NCBI RefSeq assembly: GCF_024808875.1
Contig: NZ_JANUCT010000003.1
Span: forward strand, 62,001 to 126,000
Reading direction: 5' to 3'
DNA: 64,000 bases
Origin: Methylohalomonas lacus
Lineage (GTDB): Bacteria > Pseudomonadota > Gammaproteobacteria > Methylohalomonadales > Methylohalomonadaceae
The first letter of the stretch is position 1; the number at the start of each line of letters is the position of its first letter. This document shows, piece by piece, positions 31,659-54,569 of the stretch. Position numbers and translations under genes: made by a program. The notes under the pieces were generated by a model that had not been told where the DNA came from, ran no database searches, and was given only the letters and a program-made list of their open reading frames with translations.

Positions 31659-32174
31659 TTATTTTTCAGGAAACAATGGATCAGGTAAATCGTAAAATTC
31701 GATAGGGTTTTTTGTTGAGACGCCAGCCTTGGAGGTATCCTGCATGTCAGCTTCCATGGAACCTTCCGTGAGTTCACCCAGTTGCGGGATATCCTTTTTC
31801 AGCTTTGCATTGGCTTTTATAACAGCTTCATGCAGCATGTCTGAATAGGGCAATTTATATGCGCGCGGGGCGCCATAGGATGTGAGGTCATCAATCCTGG
31901 TGACCCACAGATAGATATTACCCTCATCACCGCTGGTTTTGTCAGGTTGCTCGACGTGTACAGCTATAAGCTTGAAACGCTCAGGCAGTTTCTGCATTGT
32001 CGGCCAGCCCAATAACGGCGGAAATGAGATATAGGAAATGATGTAGAAGGCAGTTGTTATGATAATTGCACCGGCCTTTACTCGCCATGACCAGTTAGAG
32101 TAGAGATTGATGCTAAGCAGTAAAAGCGCAATCAGAACATAAGCTGTAACAAGTCCGGCTATCCCCAGAGTCAC
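31659..32174 (-). CDS. Two-TM protein of unknown family, third gene of the ExbB-like set
   Basis: The 171-residue product has two hydrophobic segments (about residues 5-22 and 32-52). They are followed by a soluble part beginning PPLLGWPTMQKLPERFKLIAV, with HVEQPDKTSGDEGNIYLWVTRI and the segment APRAYKLPYSDMLHEAVIKA. The tail is acidic and proline-containing (YDLPDPLFPEK). I recognise no family. It lies 33 bp downstream of the ExbD-topology gene on the same strand. It may be the membrane-anchored partner of the channel pair, but that is inference from position only. Confidence 0.7.
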   Translation of the reverse strand: MTLGIAGLVTAYVLIALLLLSINLYSNWSWRVKAGAIIITTAFYIISYISFPPLLGWPTMQKLPERFKLIAVHVEQPDKTSGDEGNIYLWVTRIDDLTSYGAPRAYKLPYSDMLHEAVIKANAKLKKDIPQLGELTEGSMEADMQDTSKAGVSTKNPIEFYDLPDPLFPEK

Positions 32175-32207
32175 GTCAAAATCTCCTTGATATCATCCAT
32201 ATAATTT

Positions 32208-32816
32208 TTATTTGCCCACAGAGACCAACTGTTTGGGCAGAAAGTTGATGCCACCGACCTTGCCGTCACGGTCGATTCTGAAGCGTAAAGCGGTTTTTTC
32301 GTCGCCTTCTTCTTCCAGTCTGACTGTATCGTAATAAACAACTTCAAGCGCCGGATTTACCTTGGCCAGATTAACATTAACATCGACGGCCTTGTTGCTT
32401 TCTGATTTGTAATAGTGCAGGTTCACGACATATTCTCCCTTGACCACGCCGCGGAGAGTAACTACTTCCTGATTTAGCGGGTTCTCCACCTCTTTACCTG
32501 CAACTTCAATGGTATCGTTTGCCATGCCCCGGTCATCCCGGTCCAGGTGCAAAAGTCCGACTTCAGAATTGCGAAAATACAATACCCTGCCGTCAGGATC
32601 CTCTACCCATACGTCTATATCATCAGGACTGAAGTCCTTCCAGGTGATTGTAAGTATGTACTCTGCCTTGGGATCAATGATGCCTGATTTTGCCTCCGGG
32701 TTCATAAACATTATGGCGACCAGAAACAGGAATGTGAAACCAAGCAGGGCATTGAATAGGAGGTCTACGAAAGGATCAACCGTGCCGCGACCGATTTTTC
32801 TGGAGACAATCTTCAT
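32208..32816 (-). CDS. ExbD/MotB-topology protein with DUF2135-like periplasmic domain
   Basis: A short basic cytoplasmic N-terminus leads into one TM helix (about residues 15-38). DPFVDLLFNALLGFTFLFLV places Asp14 and Asp18 at the membrane edge, as in ExbD, TolR and MotB, which carry the proton-relay aspartate there. The periplasmic part is not an ExbD fold by sequence. ILTITWKDFSPDDIDVWVED followed by PDGRVLYFRNSEVGLLHLDR and a DDRG motif resembles the DUF2135/YfaP-type beta-sandwich pattern (LTW..DID..V.DP.G....LD.DD). The protein has 202 residues. It is 15 bp downstream of the ExbB-like channel gene, which supports a stator pair. The domain match is by eye. Confidence 0.75.
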   Translation of the reverse strand: MKIVSRKIGRGTVDPFVDLLFNALLGFTFLFLVAIMFMNPEAKSGIIDPKAEYILTITWKDFSPDDIDVWVEDPDGRVLYFRNSEVGLLHLDRDDRGMANDTIEVAGKEVENPLNQEVVTLRGVVKGEYVVNLHYYKSESNKAVDVNVNLAKVNPALEVVYYDTVRLEEEGDEKTALRFRIDRDGKVGGINFLPKQLVSVGK

Positions 32817-32831
32817 GATTCTATTGAGTCG

Positions 32832-33626
32832 TCATGCCTGACTCAGTGCGGGCTTCAGTCGGACCTCAGAGATATGTTGCATGGCTTCAAGCATCTGATC
32901 GGAACTGCGATCCAGCATATAATATTGGGCTGCTGCCAGCATACTGGCTGACAGGCCGGCCATGGTCGTATATAGCGCCGTGCCCATGCCCGAACTCATC
33001 AACTGCAGGATTTTCTGCATGGTCGTTACATCAAAATCGGATATATTGGCCACGGAACCCAGCATCATGATAAAACCGACAATTGTGCCCAAAAGGCCCA
33101 GCTTAAGCATGATGTCAGTGGCAAACCAGCCGATTTCCTGCGGTCCTTTCAGTTTAGCAGCATATACCTCGATTAGATCACGGCTTGCATTGTTATCTTC
33201 ATTATTGATGCTGGTGCGATGTTGATGTTGCAAAACAAGGTCATGTAAATAACGGCCCATTAGGCTGTTCGGCACATAACCATAGCCACTCAGGCGTGCC
33301 CTGTTATCTTCCACATCGAGCCGCACGTCCGGGTTTTCATAAATATAGTGACTGATGTTATGAACCTGGTTGGATTCATAGGAGAGCTTGCCTATACGCA
33401 TGGCGCAGTGGCCAGTGACAAGAATATATATGAGTGTGATTGCAATTGATATATGACTGCGATCAGTCTCGTATAGTTGCGATAGTATGTTTTCCTGCCA
33501 GCCTACATATAACGCAAAAAGGAGCACACCGGTAAAGACGAGCCAGGAGAGCAGTAAGTGGTGCTGTCCGGCTTCCATTGCCTTGTTTACTTCTGTGTCT
33601 TGAATATATTTACTGACACTGCTCAT
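32832..33626 (-). CDS. MotA/TolQ/ExbB family proton channel protein (atypical)
   Basis: The 264-residue protein has TM segments at about 27-43, 58-72, 172-192 and 212-236. The family core is present: the helix with GLLGTIVGFIMMLGSV at about 177-192, and MSSGMGTALYTTMAGLSASM, which holds the Thr/Ser residues lining the proton path. The N-terminal half, with a 100-residue cytoplasmic segment between TM2 and TM3, differs from ordinary ExbB or TolQ. It should form a channel with the ExbD-topology protein encoded 15 bp downstream and power some envelope process; the load is unknown. It starts 43 bp after the L,D-transpeptidase gene on the same strand. Confidence 0.85.
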   Translation of the reverse strand: MSSVSKYIQDTEVNKAMEAGQHHLLLSWLVFTGVLLFALYVGWQENILSQLYETDRSHISIAITLIYILVTGHCAMRIGKLSYESNQVHNISHYIYENPDVRLDVEDNRARLSGYGYVPNSLMGRYLHDLVLQHQHRTSINNEDNNASRDLIEVYAAKLKGPQEIGWFATDIMLKLGLLGTIVGFIMMLGSVANISDFDVTTMQKILQLMSSGMGTALYTTMAGLSASMLAAAQYYMLDRSSDQMLEAMQHISEVRLKPALSQA

Positions 33627-33669: not shown

Positions 33670-34251
33670 TCATTCTTTGATGACGATAGGAGTGCCAATC
33701 GTCACGTACTGACGCAACTCGATGATTTCATCGTTGGTTAATGCGATACAACCGGCTGTCCAGTTCTCCCGGGCATGGATCGCGCGCTTTTCATCGTTCA
33801 TCTCACCGATGCCATGGATGCCGATTTGACCACCCAGAGCGGTATCCTGCGGCGGTTTCTGATTGTTTTTGACTGCCGTAGTTATTTCATGGAATTCAGA
33901 GGCATCGATCAATTCATTCTTGTAACCGTACCAGGCGTCAAGAAGATTCGGATAATCAATCTGCATGAAGAAATGAAAGCGGCTGTCATCCTTGAAATCC
34001 ACCACGCGGTATACACCGATGGGCGTTTTCCTGTCACCTTGTACACGTTTCGTCCCCTGGCCACCACGGCCGGTAGCCGCACGATAGCGCTTGATAACGC
34101 TGTTCTCGTGTTTGACCACGAGTTCGGAACGGGATTTGTCGATTTCTATGCTGTATTCGCCAGACGTCGCATGAGCGGCACCGGCAATCTGCTGCGCCAG
34201 TGCCGGTGACGACAGTATCAAGAGCAGGTATAGGATTATTAACAGGCGCAT
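33670..34251 (-). CDS. L,D-transpeptidase (YkuD family), exported
   Basis: The start at 34251 gives 193 residues opening with a clear signal peptide (MRLLIILYLLLILSSPALAQ). A longer open frame upstream to 34527 overlaps the permease gene and has no export signal, so it is rejected. The YkuD core follows: VYRVVDFKDDSRFHFFMQIDYP, IGIHGIGE and the catalytic motif ARENWTAGCIALTNDEI (nucleophile Cys in AGC). Such enzymes cross-link peptidoglycan 3-3, attach lipoproteins or cleave such links in the periplasm. It lies between an ABC exporter and the proton-channel set, all on the same strand. Confidence 0.88.
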   Translation of the reverse strand: MRLLIILYLLLILSSPALAQQIAGAAHATSGEYSIEIDKSRSELVVKHENSVIKRYRAATGRGGQGTKRVQGDRKTPIGVYRVVDFKDDSRFHFFMQIDYPNLLDAWYGYKNELIDASEFHEITTAVKNNQKPPQDTALGGQIGIHGIGEMNDEKRAIHARENWTAGCIALTNDEIIELRQYVTIGTPIVIKE

Positions 34252-34354: not shown

Positions 34355-35161
34355 CTATTGCCGCCGGCAGCTGAGTATGCTGGCCAGACTTTCCATGACG
34401 GGGGCCTGGGTGAAACGCAGGCAGGCGACGAACAGTGCCGCAATAATACAGCCGATTTGTATGAAAATGCCCTGGACAATACTGAATTCCGGCGCCAGCG
34501 CACCCGCTTCATTGCTGATAAGTGCATGCTTCAACAAATCGACACCATAGGTGAACGGGTTGATGAGGGTAATACTTTTTAACCATAAGGGCAGGTGCTC
34601 CAGCGGATAGAGTGCGCCGCTGAGGAAAAACACCGGAAAAATAATGAAATTCATGATGACGGCAAAATTATCCAGGCTTTTGCTGAATACCGCGATCAAC
34701 ATGCCAAAGGCGGCACACAGCAGGGCGGTCAGCACCAGGCCCAGCGCGAGCAGGGCAAACTGGATGGGCAGGCTGAGATAGCCCAGTATGGCCAGTATCG
34801 CCAGTAGCAGTAATACCTGCACCAGGCCGGCAATGGCGGCACTTACCGTGCGTGCAAGAATGATCCAGTAATGCGAAAAAGGCGCTATGACAAGCATGCG
34901 CATGACGCCGGATTCCTTGTCATAGACCAGTGACAGCGATGCCAGCATGGCACCGAACAGTAACACCATGCACAGCAAACCGGGCACCAGAAACTGCTGG
35001 TAGTCACCACTGCCGTGTTGTTCCAGCATCGCGCCGACACCGCCGCCGATGACCAGTAGCCAGATGAGCGGCCGAATCATGGCGCTCAGCAGTCGGCCGC
35101 GCTGGCGCAACATGCGGGTCAGTTCACGGCCGATAATGGCGCGCGTGGCACGTGCGATCAT
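34355..35161 (-). CDS. ABC-2 type transporter permease
   Basis: This 268-residue integral membrane protein has about six hydrophobic segments and the ABC-2 pattern: a basic amphipathic start (IIGRELTRMLRQRGRLLSAM), a central KESGVMRMLVIAPFSHYWIILAR segment and LSGALYPLEHLPLWLKSITLINPFTYGVDLLKHAL, the ABC-2 signature. Its ATG overlaps the stop of the ATPase gene by 4 bases, so the two proteins form one exporter. The substrate is unknown. Confidence 0.9.
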   Translation of the reverse strand: MIARATRAIIGRELTRMLRQRGRLLSAMIRPLIWLLVIGGGVGAMLEQHGSGDYQQFLVPGLLCMVLLFGAMLASLSLVYDKESGVMRMLVIAPFSHYWIILARTVSAAIAGLVQVLLLLAILAILGYLSLPIQFALLALGLVLTALLCAAFGMLIAVFSKSLDNFAVIMNFIIFPVFFLSGALYPLEHLPLWLKSITLINPFTYGVDLLKHALISNEAGALAPEFSIVQGIFIQIGCIIAALFVACLRFTQAPVMESLASILSCRRQ

Positions 35162-36087
35162 GCGGCTTCCCCCTTGCCAGTCGGCTGATTGCGCCAGATG
35201 TAGACATCATTCAGATCCGGTTTGCGCAGTTGCAGGGCCCGTACCTCGTGCTGCAGGCGTTGTTGCAAGGCGCCAAATTGAAAATCCTCGTCCTGGATGG
35301 CAAATAGCAGCCGCTCATCTTCCTGTACCGGGGTGCCGAGCTCGCTACTGAGCTGTTCTATATAGTAGTCTGGCTGGTCTGTTTCTATCTCCAGGATGTA
35401 ATGGCCAAGCGCGCGGATCAGGTCACTGGGTTGGCCCTGACCGATAAGCTGGCCGTGACGCAGGAAGGCGACTTCGTCGCAGCCCTCGGCTTCCTCCAGG
35501 TAATGGGTGGTCAGCAACACGCTCATGCCGTGTTCCTGGCGCAGCCGGCTGATGAACCGCCAGATGGCGCGGCGGTTGATGATATCGAGACCGATGGTCG
35601 GTTCATCCAGAAACAATACCCGCGGGCGGTGCAGAACGCCGCGGGCGATATCCAGGGCACGGCGCATACCGCCGGACAGCGCAGCCACCCGTACCTCGCG
35701 TTTACTTTCCAGATCGAACAGGTCCAGCAGTTCAGCCAGCCGCTGTTCCACGGTGGTCGCGTCGAGCCCGTACAGTGCCCCGGCGAAATGCAGGTTCTCC
35801 GCCACTGTCAGGCTGCGATCGAGAGCTGATTCCTGAAATACCAGGCCGATGCAGGCGCGTGCCTGAACCGGCTGCTTCAGCACATCGTAGCCGGCAACCC
35901 GTATGCTGCCGACAGTTGGCCGTGCCAGTGTGCTCAGCATATGGATCGTTGTGGTCTTGCCGGAGCCGTTCGGGCCCAGCAGACCAAAAAAGCTGCCGTC
36001 GGCCACGTTCAGTGTCAGTTCATTCACGGCGCGGACGTCACCGTACTGCTTGGTCAGGCCGCGGCATTCGATTGCGGACGCTTGCAT
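35158..36087 (-). CDS. ABC-2 type transporter ATP-binding protein (DrrA-like)
   Basis: The 309-residue ATPase has Walker A GPNGSGKTTTIHML near residue 38, a Q-loop in GLVFQESALDRSLT, the ABC signature LSGGMRRALDIARG, Walker B VLFLDEPTIGLD and the H-loop TTHYLEEAE. A C-terminal extension of about 80 residues (from LIRALGHYILEIETD) is typical of DrrA-type exporters. It starts a minus-strand run of six genes (ATPase, permease, L,D-transpeptidase, ExbB-like, ExbD-topology, two-TM protein) that could be one transcript. Confidence 0.93.
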   Translation of the reverse strand: MQASAIECRGLTKQYGDVRAVNELTLNVADGSFFGLLGPNGSGKTTTIHMLSTLARPTVGSIRVAGYDVLKQPVQARACIGLVFQESALDRSLTVAENLHFAGALYGLDATTVEQRLAELLDLFDLESKREVRVAALSGGMRRALDIARGVLHRPRVLFLDEPTIGLDIINRRAIWRFISRLRQEHGMSVLLTTHYLEEAEGCDEVAFLRHGQLIGQGQPSDLIRALGHYILEIETDQPDYYIEQLSSELGTPVQEDERLLFAIQDEDFQFGALQQRLQHEVRALQLRKPDLNDVYIWRNQPTGKGEAA

Positions 36088-52273: not shown

Positions 52274-52690
52274 TTAATTGCCGGTGCCGGGCCGTTTGGC
52301 AGCAATGGCGATATTACTGACACCGGCCAGCCGCACCTGGTCCATTACATCGACCATGAGACCACTGCGTGACTGCTTGTCGGCCGTGATGATTACCGTG
52401 CCTTCCGGATTCTGGGCATGAAGTCTCTGTACATGGGCGCGTACCGAACGGATGTCGACCTGGTTGTTATCGATCCAAATCTCGCCGTTCTGGCTGATGG
52501 CTATGACCAGGTTGCCGCGTTCCTGGCGATTGGCGGTTTCCGCCGATGGCCGGTCAACATCGATACCGGATTCCTTGGTAAACGAGGCGGTGACCAGAAA
52601 GAAGATCAGCAGGATGAATACCATGTCGATCAACGGTGTCAGATTGACGCCGACATCGGTACTGTCACGCTGTGTATGGGACGGTCGCAT
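52274..52690 (-). CDS. exbD: TonB-system ExbD
   Basis: The 138-residue protein has one TM helix near residues 18-36 (VNLTPLIDMVFILLIFFLVT), with the proton-relay aspartate at D22, and a periplasmic ExbD fold with GNLVIAISQNGEIWIDNNQV and TADKQSRSGLMVDVMDQVRL. It partners the ExbB encoded directly upstream (1 bp gap). Confidence 0.95.
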   Translation of the reverse strand: MRPSHTQRDSTDVGVNLTPLIDMVFILLIFFLVTASFTKESGIDVDRPSAETANRQERGNLVIAISQNGEIWIDNNQVDIRSVRAHVQRLHAQNPEGTVIITADKQSRSGLMVDVMDQVRLAGVSNIAIAAKRPGTGN

Positions 52691-52691
52691 A

Positions 52692-53210
52692 TTATTCGCT
52701 TATGTTGAGTTGGTCCTGCGCGCGCTGGCGTTCGACCTTGGCGCGGTGGCGCAGATTGGCACTGAAATACAGTCCGGCAATGGCGGTGGTCAGCCCGGCC
52801 GTGGTCGGAAGCAGCGCCCGGCCAATGCCGTCGGCCATGCCGCGGGCGTTGCCGGTGCCGAACACGGTAATGACGTCGAAAATCGCAATCATGCCGGTGA
52901 CCGTGCCAAGCAGGCCAAGCAGTGGCAGTATCTGCGTGATCGTCTGGATCGGCGTCAGGTAGGACTGTAGGGCCAGATTGATCTCTGCAGACAGCCCTTC
53001 GCGCAGTCGCAGTGCATGCCACGAACTCTTGTCTGAACGCTGTTGCCAGCGTTGAATGATCGACCGTAACCGTTTTGGATAGGTGAAATACAGGAAACAG
53101 TAGCGCTCGAGGATCAGTATCCACAGCAGAGTCGAGACGCACAGAATGCCAACCAGCACGGGGCCGCCGCGCTCGAAGAAAACAATCAGTTGCTCGACGT
53201 ACTCAGGCAT
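52692..53210 (-). CDS. exbB: TonB-system ExbB (ExbB2 type)
   Basis: The short 172-residue ExbB2-type channel protein has TM helices at about 14-34, 92-114 and 133-152, with PLLGLLGTVTGMIAIFDVIT and ALLPTTAGLTTAIAGLYFSA as the proton-channel core. It forms the pentameric motor with the ExbD dimer. It follows the TtpC-like gene by 3 bp. Confidence 0.95.
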   Translation of the reverse strand: MPEYVEQLIVFFERGGPVLVGILCVSTLLWILILERYCFLYFTYPKRLRSIIQRWQQRSDKSSWHALRLREGLSAEINLALQSYLTPIQTITQILPLLGLLGTVTGMIAIFDVITVFGTGNARGMADGIGRALLPTTAGLTTAIAGLYFSANLRHRAKVERQRAQDQLNISE

Positions 53211-53213
53211 GGG

Positions 53214-54569
53214 TTACTTGCCAGTGGCAGCCTTGTGTTCGCCTTCGGCCAGTACTGCAACGTAGGCGGCACTTTGCTGGTCCAGTATCTGGATGATGGC
53301 GTTACTCTTTGACGACAGGAAGCTGTGAATCAGTAGCAGCGGAATGGCTGCCAGCAGACCCAGTGCAGTCGTCACCAAGGCCTCGGATATGCCGGCCGAC
53401 ATGAGCTTCGGGTCGCCGGTGCCGAACAGCGTGATCGACTGGAATGTCTCGATGATGCCGGTAACGGTGCCAAGTAGCCCGAGCAGCGGCGTAACCGCGG
53501 CGAGAATGGCGATCGTGCCGAGCCCGCGCTGCAGCGGGTTGATCTCGCGCAGTATTGACTCGTCCAGCTTGTGCCCCAGCGTATCCGTGTCGACGTGCTT
53601 GTTGTCGAAATAGACCTGCATGATGCGTCCGAGCGGGTTGTTGCCCGGGCTCTTGTCACGCAATTGCCGGCGAACCTTGCGGTAGGCGCTCGACAGTACG
53701 AAGAAACGTTCGATGGCGACCAGCAGGCCGATCAGGGCCAATGCGAGAATCACGTAAGCGACGATGCCACCCTGCTGGATACGAGTGGTGAGATCCGGCG
53801 ATTGCACCAGCAGGGCCAGCAGACTGCCCCGGGTGGGGTCGATGGCTACCGGGTGCATGCCATCCTCGGCACTTTCGAGTGCCCGCGCCTGAGCCAGATA
53901 GCGGTTGCTGGGCTGGCGCTGCGGTTCGACCAGCTTGCCGCCGTCTTCCAGATAGCGCAGGTACTTGCCATCGGCCAGCGCCACAAAGGTACCGATCCGG
54001 GTGACCTGGCGTTGTTGTTTTTCGCCCTGGAGATTGATCACTGGAGCATTGAATTGTGTTACAGCGCCGGCGGCGGCAATTTCGTCAAGGGTCATTTGCC
54101 AGAGCCGGCGGATTTCATCCAGCGACGGCAGTTCTTCGCTGGTGGCCAGCTGTTCGACGAATTCGGCGCGATCCGGTATCTGTGCCGATACCAGAGAGTT
54201 CTCCAGTGACGCCTGGATATCGCCGGCAATCTGGCGTATGACGCCATGCAGCTCGTCCAGGTAGCCCATGCGTTCTTTCAGCTGTGCTTCCTGCGCCTTG
54301 ATGTTTTCGGCGTTGCTTTCGAATTCCTCACGCAACGACTCGCTTTCGCCTTCCAGCGCGGCCAGCTCGGCGCGGGCCTGTTCCAGCATCTGCTGCTGTT
54401 CGTCGCGGGCGTTGCGGAATTCTTCCAGCCGCTGGTTGAACTCGCGTTTTTCAGTAGCGCTTTCCTGGCGTACTTGCTCGACCAGCTGATCGAGACTCTG
54501 GGCCTGTGCCGGGGCGGTGGCGAGCCAGCCGCAAAGGCCCAGAAGTAGGGTCAGTGTCTGTTTTTTCAT
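53214..54569 (-). CDS. ttpC: TtpC-like protein (MotA/TolQ/ExbB with periplasmic coiled coil)
   Basis: The 451-residue protein has a signal peptide (ends TAPAQAQS), then a long periplasmic coiled coil (about 27-130, VRQESATEKREFNQRLEEFR and on) plus a second domain. Its C-terminal ExbB-like channel region (about 270-440) contains TPLLGLLGTVTGIIETFQSI and EALVTTALGLLAAIPLLLIH. This architecture is that of TtpC of the Vibrio TonB2 system, needed there for siderophore-iron uptake. Its ATG overlaps the end of the DUF3450 gene by 4 bases. Confidence 0.92.
   Translation of the reverse strand: MKKQTLTLLLGLCGWLATAPAQAQSLDQLVEQVRQESATEKREFNQRLEEFRNARDEQQQMLEQARAELAALEGESESLREEFESNAENIKAQEAQLKERMGYLDELHGVIRQIAGDIQASLENSLVSAQIPDRAEFVEQLATSEELPSLDEIRRLWQMTLDEIAAAGAVTQFNAPVINLQGEKQQRQVTRIGTFVALADGKYLRYLEDGGKLVEPQRQPSNRYLAQARALESAEDGMHPVAIDPTRGSLLALLVQSPDLTTRIQQGGIVAYVILALALIGLLVAIERFFVLSSAYRKVRRQLRDKSPGNNPLGRIMQVYFDNKHVDTDTLGHKLDESILREINPLQRGLGTIAILAAVTPLLGLLGTVTGIIETFQSITLFGTGDPKLMSAGISEALVTTALGLLAAIPLLLIHSFLSSKSNAIIQILDQQSAAYVAVLAEGEHKAATGK

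Follow-up and report, generated by a model that had tools for sequence, protein, structure and literature searches.

Introduction

The known 5:2 ion-driven motors (Mot, Tol, Ton, Zor and Agl) differ mainly in the head of the rotor and in the load. Among the subunits of these motors, MotA has a layout of four transmembrane (TM) segments and ExbB one of three, and MotB and TolR engage the cell wall. In 2025, motors were described in which a TolQ-like protein goes with a vWA head instead of ExbD, the genes lying in pairs (PMC12204202, Mol Biol Evol).

Here we analyze a set of three genes, hereafter the trio, in a window of 64,000 nucleotides of Methylohalomonas lacus DNA. Its rotor head may be of a type unlike those of the known motors, and the trio may be an undescribed cell-envelope machine. 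We found no description of the trio in the open-licence PMC literature; no paper there contained both ExbB and DUF2135, which, given the limited scope of the search, is weak evidence of absence, and ExbB combined with FHA domain and von Willebrand returned only unrelated transcriptome work. If a DUF2135-type head and a constant third subunit do mark a widespread subclass not yet described, the list of 5:2 motors would grow.

The trio and its proteins

Homology, gene order, single-chain folds and genomic association were established by computation, with ORF-based gene calls. An earlier note on this DNA had proposed three closely spaced genes, and the reading frames were indeed found at the coordinates below, all on the minus strand and with the gaps it had given, 15 bp between ORF1 and ORF2 and 33 bp between ORF2 and ORF3. 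The features of the locus are as follows.

33626-32832, minus strand: ORF1, 264 aa, MotA/TolQ/ExbB-type channel subunit (reading frame and PF01618)
32816-32208, minus strand: ORF2, 202 aa, proposed rotor subunit with one TM helix and a DUF2135-type beta domain
32775..32777, minus strand: codon of ORF2 Asp14 (reading frame)
32763..32765, minus strand: codon of ORF2 Asp18, the residue standing where ExbD/TolR have their Asp (PFxD motif; reading frame)
32703..32774, minus strand: ORF2 TM helix, residues 15-38 (AlphaFold2/DSSP)
32244..32666, minus strand: ORF2 all-beta domain, residues 51-191, presumably periplasmic (AlphaFold2/DSSP)
32174-31659, minus strand: ORF3, 171 aa, GTG start, TM hairpin, alpha/beta domain and conserved C-terminal tail
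33670..34251, minus strand: YkuD-type L,D-transpeptidase, about 193 aa, signal-like N-terminus (PF03734, 79.4 bits)
34355..35161, minus strand: ABC-2 permease upstream of the trio (TIGR03861 PedC, 175 bits, below the cut-off of 241)
35158..36087, minus strand: ABC-2 ATPase upstream of the trio (NCBIfam matches below cut-off)

The YkuD gene, whose start we took at MRLLIIL, position 34251, lies upstream of ORF1 on the same strand and ends 43 bp from it; the two genes are likely to share a transcript. Farther upstream, the best NCBIfam match of the ABC-2 permease was TIGR03861 (alcohol ABC transporter PedC), and the ATPase matched drrA (285 bits) and TIGR03864 PQQ_ABC_ATP (225 bits), both under cut-off. 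It is uncertain that this permease and ATPase are tied to the trio. The GC content of the trio (31659-33626) is 46.6%, compared to 56.6% for the window. The window also has, at 52295-53642 on the minus strand (contig 114295-115642), an ordinary ExbB/ExbB/ExbD cluster that includes a TonB-like protein and offers an internal contrast to the trio.

ORF1 matched PF01618 in Pfam with 39.9 bits, against a cut-off of 22.9, over residues 175-250, and it contains the core KLGLLGTIVGF. By ORF1, the trio belongs to the MotA/TolQ/ExbB class. Hydrophobic segments were found at residues 24-42, 58-76 and 172-190. The first two precede the core and apparently correspond to the additional pair of N-terminal TM segments in MotA, and ORF1 looks nearer to the four-TM layout of MotA than to the three-TM layout of ExbB. 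Residues T181, T220 and T221, which we take, by motif and from what is known of ExbB, to be the pore Thr residues in the final two TM helices, showed no variation in an alignment of six members. The best PADLOC matches of ORF1 were ZorA models (1.5e-6), a likeness that covers the channel part only, about 95 ZorA positions. The trio differs from ZorA/ZorB in that ORF1 lacks the long ZorA tail and ORF2 has no ZorB match, and from Zorya in its conserved chromosomal setting, which is not a defence island. We therefore rejected a role in Zorya defence: the match of ORF1 is limited to its channel part, ORF2 and ORF3 have no PADLOC match, and no partners (ZorC/D/E) were present.

ORF2 contains a single hydrophobic segment (residues 19-37), at the start of which stand Asp14 and Asp18. 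AlphaFold2 predicted (mean pLDDT 87) a helix at residues 15-38 followed by 12 strands within residues 51-191, and DSSP assigned no helix of four or more residues to the model after the TM segment. Searches of Pfam, NCBIfam and PADLOC at loose limits gave no match for ORF2. Among the Pfam families listed, ExbD was matched neither by ORF2 nor by any of 60 members, a VWA match was likewise absent from ORF2, and ORF2 did not match an OmpA-like domain, its fold being all-beta. An OmpA-type or other known peptidoglycan-binding domain was not found in the trio by Pfam, NCBIfam, PADLOC or inspection of the ORF2 model.

The commonest Pfam match among 60 ORF2 homologues was DUF2135 (PF09906), seen in 25 of them below the cut-off, at best 0.0012. 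One homologue (G091) scored 22.3 bits in the genome search and 19.8 in hmmscan, against a DUF2135 cut-off of 22.0. The strongest evidence was reciprocal. The ORF2 profile matched region 996-1083 of a 1118-aa protein at 4.6e-11, and Pfam assigned to that protein VIT and DUF2135 domains, the latter at 1053-1100, overlapping the ORF2 match. These profile comparisons indicate that the beta domain of ORF2 is homologous to the DUF2135 domain of the VIT-domain protein. In VIT/VWA proteins DUF2135 is a C-terminal domain and, unlike in ORF2, is neither fused to an Asp-bearing TM helix nor paired with ExbB.

Foldseek against the PDB gave nothing significant for ORF2 or for ORF3, and a PDB sequence search gave weak matches only, such as that of ORF2 to virion structural protein 11pb (E 0.17). 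In BFVD, eight phage proteins matched the fold of the ORF2 beta domain at E<1e-3 (Foldseek), I7JBZ3, A0A292GCF5 and S0A5K4 among them.

The earlier note had described a MotA/TolQ/ExbB-type channel protein followed by a one-TM partner with Asp14 and Asp18 at the membrane edge, in which a DUF2135-type beta domain replaces that of ExbD or OmpA. The PF01618 score bears out the first part, the position of both Asp residues at the start of segment 19-37 agrees with the second, and the all-beta model together with the match at 4.6e-11 supports the third. The structure prediction, on which the note had staked this reading, did not show a plain ExbD fold, and the reading survives. A plain ExbD identity for ORF2 was ruled out by the all-beta fold, which holds no alpha/beta domain, and by the profile comparison.

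As in ExbB/ExbD and TolQ/TolR, the trio has a PF01618 subunit first and next a subunit with one TM helix, at whose start an Asp lies. It differs from them in the all-beta, DUF2135-type head of ORF2, which is not an ExbD fold, in lacking TonB or TolA, and in its constant third subunit, ORF3. Because ORF2 fails as an ExbD on both fold and profile, the ORF1/ORF2 pair should not be called ExbBD. MotA/MotB likewise combines PF01618 with a one-TM Asp partner, but the trio has no OmpA-like peptidoglycan-binding domain, and flagellar neighbours were not noted. The TPH-vWA motors (PMC12204202) resemble the trio in their Asp-helix rotor, in a head that differs from ExbD and in the absence of an ExbD gene, whereas the trio head is of DUF2135 type and vWA is found only on a separate FHA protein at some loci.

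The motif around the ORF2 Asp residues is DPFVDLLFN. Since PxIDV stands at the corresponding place in the ExbD/TolR proteins of this genome, Asp18 occupies the canonical position. When ORF2 was compared with three of these proteins by hhalign, however, only ten columns were aligned (PFVDLLFNAL / PYIDVMLVLL), with a probability of 3%; thus, the kinship of the TM helix of ORF2 with that of ExbD/TolR is a match of position and motif, not proven homology. In the alignment of 120 ORF2s, Asp14 was kept in 113 and lost in seven divergent ones that have Asp18 only, and Asp18 was kept in 105. Asp14, Asp18 and Asn22 occur together in 98; the 15 that lost Asp18 have Asp14, Val or Ala at position 18, and Lys22 in every case. 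All 120 retain Asp14 or Asp18. The replacement of Asp18 by Val or Ala together with Asn22 by Lys was seen at loci L147-L156, L114, L120, L123, L126 and L127. As the Val18 and Ala18 groups fall in separate parts of the ORF2 tree (a quick tree with some weak forks), Asp18 was probably lost, with Lys22 gained, on two occasions. With Asp18 lost in two clades, one cannot take ordinary ExbD chemistry for granted in every member, and the repeated exchange serves as a natural experiment for identifying the ion-carrying residue.

ORF3 has two hydrophobic segments (4-22 and 32-50), and its AlphaFold2 model (pLDDT 87) is a TM hairpin (2-25 and 30-54) with an alpha/beta domain. The loop between the helices is positively charged, a charge pattern that suggests a periplasmic location for the C-terminal domain; the C-terminal tail (...LPDPLFPEK) is conserved. 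Pfam, NCBIfam and PADLOC placed ORF3 in no family, and it did not match the TonB/TolA families. At one locus (L174, 9199-10253), two tandem ORF3-type genes follow one ORF2.

Occurrence and gene neighbourhoods

Among 56 relatives, ORF2 was found in five genomes including this one, each from its own family, with two copies in this genome. Identity to the window proteins among the six copies was 49-71% for ORF2, 32-48% for ORF1 and 28-56% for ORF3. A scan of genome contigs confirmed 280 ORF2 relatives, 80 of which were kept. Adjoining 121 distinct ORF2s, ORF1 was present in 114 cases and ORF3 in 115, with the order preserved. This is what the earlier note had expected of a trio that stays together in other genomes, and its third member, described there as an unrecognized two-TM protein, is still without a family and keeps its place beside ORF2. 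Most ORF2s that lack a partner lie at contig ends or in loci too divergent for the profiles; for L130 and L131, which had no partner by profile, the cause is likewise contig ends or divergence. One ORF2-profile match (L133) was a TatB-like protein and was dropped. The genes overlap by 4 bp at many loci, as is usual for subunits made together, and distant members still hold the whole trio. Since the order is conserved across families and classes, the trio is not a product of chance.

In a sample of the class, the ORF2 profile matched 40 of 369 genomes, a few of these matches being divergent or doubtful. Carriers are mostly uncultured Gammaproteobacteria and include Alphaproteobacteria, Candidatus Thiodiazotropha and bins labelled Nitrospirae and Deltaproteobacteria. 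Nine sampled genomes of one genus (g363, 6-9 Mb) have the trio, and a divergent but complete one is found on plasmid ABSP7_p1 of the cultured bacterium Azospirillum brasilense Sp7 (L181, 8151-10094).

Two types of neighbourhood were distinguished. Type I is gammaproteobacterial, lies beside tilS, accA and dnaE, and includes genes for YkuD (48 loci), a DUF302 protein (41) and a protein with signal, VWA, TM and FHA parts (39), the YkuD and VWA-FHA counts being over 86 loci. Type II has a gene for a DUF3108-like lipoprotein directly downstream (26 loci) and often includes a PQQ-dependent alcohol dehydrogenase, a SoxYZ-like carrier, a SoxH-like hydrolase and pqq genes. The window trio is of type I but has neither the DUF302 nor the VWA-FHA gene. 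The second copy in this genome, a complete trio on another contig (C15; locus L014, 8567-6646), has an ORF2 that is 70% identical and is of type II, with the DUF3108-like lipoprotein gene downstream and no YkuD gene upstream.

Proposed mechanism and candidate loads

The best reading overall is that the trio forms a new subclass of ExbB/ExbD-type motor, to which we give a probability of roughly 0.6; its motor part, judged by analogy, is likely. For complex formation, proton flow, rotation and load, we infer the following. As in ExbB/ExbD, ORF1 would form a membrane ring with an ORF2 dimer inside, and Asp18 (or Asp14) of ORF2 would be the proton-carrying residue. Turning of ORF2 would move the DUF2135-type beta-sandwich head in the periplasm. 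ORF3 would be the third and obligate subunit in the membrane, with an alpha/beta domain in the periplasm that either links the head to the load or regulates it; given its presence throughout, ORF3 is the obvious candidate for coupling or controlling the heads. The candidate load is the periplasmic PQQ-dependent alcohol dehydrogenase system, with the motor acting in the delivery or assembly of cofactor, metal or enzyme.

Several observations bear on this load. PQQ-linked genes were found in the fetched flanks of 35 of 105 loci, although in a few of the 35 the sole link is an ABC permease or propeller gene; pqqB, pqqC or pqqE were found in five. A strong match to TIGR03075 (E<1e-100, a threshold set after viewing the list) was present in 26/36 trio genomes compared to 36/333 others (odds ratio 21, p 3e-15) and, by family, in 17/21 compared to 23/161 (odds ratio 25.5). 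In a second, phylum-wide draw, the PQQ-dependent dehydrogenase (PQQ-DH) was present in 14/14 trio genomes and in 81/384 others, carriers that are not independent because 10 of the 14 come from two genera of one family. SoxB, used as a control, occurred in 11/28 trio genomes and 92/220 others; with an odds ratio of 0.9 there is no overall association, and thiosulfate oxidation was rejected as the linked trait.

The association has exceptions. No strong PQQ-DH match was found in 10 of the 36 trio genomes, four of whose lineages also lack PqqB, and within the window there is no PQQ-DH gene near the trio. PqqB was present in 13 of 18 trio genomes checked, this one included, and absent from five (G042, G141, G126, G093 and G581). 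Since some carriers have neither PQQ-DH nor PqqB, the link between trio and PQQ is strong, not absolute. Carriers without PQQ-DH belong mainly to four families (f43, f94, f127 and f142), their ORF2s form one supported clade, and all those checked have SoxB except one incomplete genome. Trio genomes with SoxB and without a strong PQQ-DH match include G042, G093, G126, G141, G182 and G213.

The association might reflect shared lineage or lifestyle alone and have no bearing on function, an explanation that has a substantial chance of being right, if short of an even one. The trio and PQQ-DH both track related families, the lineages that have the trio and lack PQQ fall in one ORF2 clade, and a shared lifestyle behind the two is possible. 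On the other hand, the association holds by family, repeats in the second draw and is absent for SoxB, and physical linkage of trio and PQQ genes was seen in several ORF2 clades. A quinoprotein load (PQQ-dependent, lanthanide-type) for the motor is tentative and, on balance, rather unlikely. Its most specific form, a dedicated ion-driven motor of PQQ/lanthanide alcohol oxidation (cofactor or metal loading, or dehydrogenase assembly), with one clade re-used in PQQ-free, SoxB-bearing sulfur oxidizers and two clades in which Asp18 was replaced and Lys22 gained, is doubtful and a little less likely still. If the quinoprotein link is true, it bears on how periplasmic PQQ/lanthanide dehydrogenases acquire metal and cofactor.

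The motor might instead work on the cell wall, as MotB and TolR do, with peptidoglycan, or the L,D-transpeptidase encoded upstream, as the target of the ORF2 and ORF3 heads. The YkuD gene just upstream here recurs in 48 of the 86 loci, and a probable N-acetylmuramoyl-L-alanine amidase ORF was recognized by eye beside the trio of A. brasilense Sp7. However, nearly all YkuD genes lie at the one syntenic locus marked by tilS, accA and dnaE, YkuD is absent from the second copy and from the alpha, beta and Thiodiazotropha loci, and the trio holds no known peptidoglycan-binding domain. We consider a wall load, which the earlier note had put forward as a possibility, rather unlikely; the lead to PQQ-dependent alcohol dehydrogenase systems, absent from that note, is statistically the stronger of the two.

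Quite unlikely is a signalling device, in which ion flow or the state of the wall would be sensed through ORF2/ORF3 and read by the VWA-TM-FHA protein, which would bind cytosolic phosphothreonine. In its favour, this fourth gene product has a signal-like N-terminus with VWA and FHA domains in 39 of the 86 loci, DUF2135 and VIT/VWA domains co-occur in other proteins, and this genome has a kinase/phosphatase/FHA cluster. Yet the gene is absent from the window and from the second clade, and the core function thus does not require it; the kinase cluster lies away from the trio, and FHA is a common domain. Among the FHA proteins of this genome no equivalent of VWA-TM-FHA was found, only that generic FHA/kinase cluster. 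The VWA-TM-FHA gene directly follows ORF3 at L027, L028, L029, L032 and 35 other loci; its architecture would link a periplasmic VWA domain to a cytosolic phosphothreonine reader.

A TonB-like energizer of an outer-membrane receptor, for lanthanide complexes for instance, with ORF3 as TonB, fits the D-x-D lanthanide motif of most neighbouring PQQ-DHs and the need of known lanthanide uptake for a TonB-dependent receptor (PMC7391723), but is very improbable: ORF3 is modelled as a TM hairpin joined to a compact domain and lacks a long Pro-rich span, an outer-membrane receptor gene was not seen as a recurring neighbour of trio loci, and this genome already has ordinary ExbB/ExbD/TonB genes. The open-licence PMC papers on lanthanides that we consulted make no mention of genes such as those of the trio. 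The D-x-D motif has been described as lanthanide-binding (PMC11996626). As W-D-[YF]-D, it was found in the dehydrogenases adjacent to the trio at L018, L066, L077, L082, L085, L096, L098, L136 and L170; the dehydrogenase at L089 lacks D-x-D, and those at L021 and L075 are of another kind.
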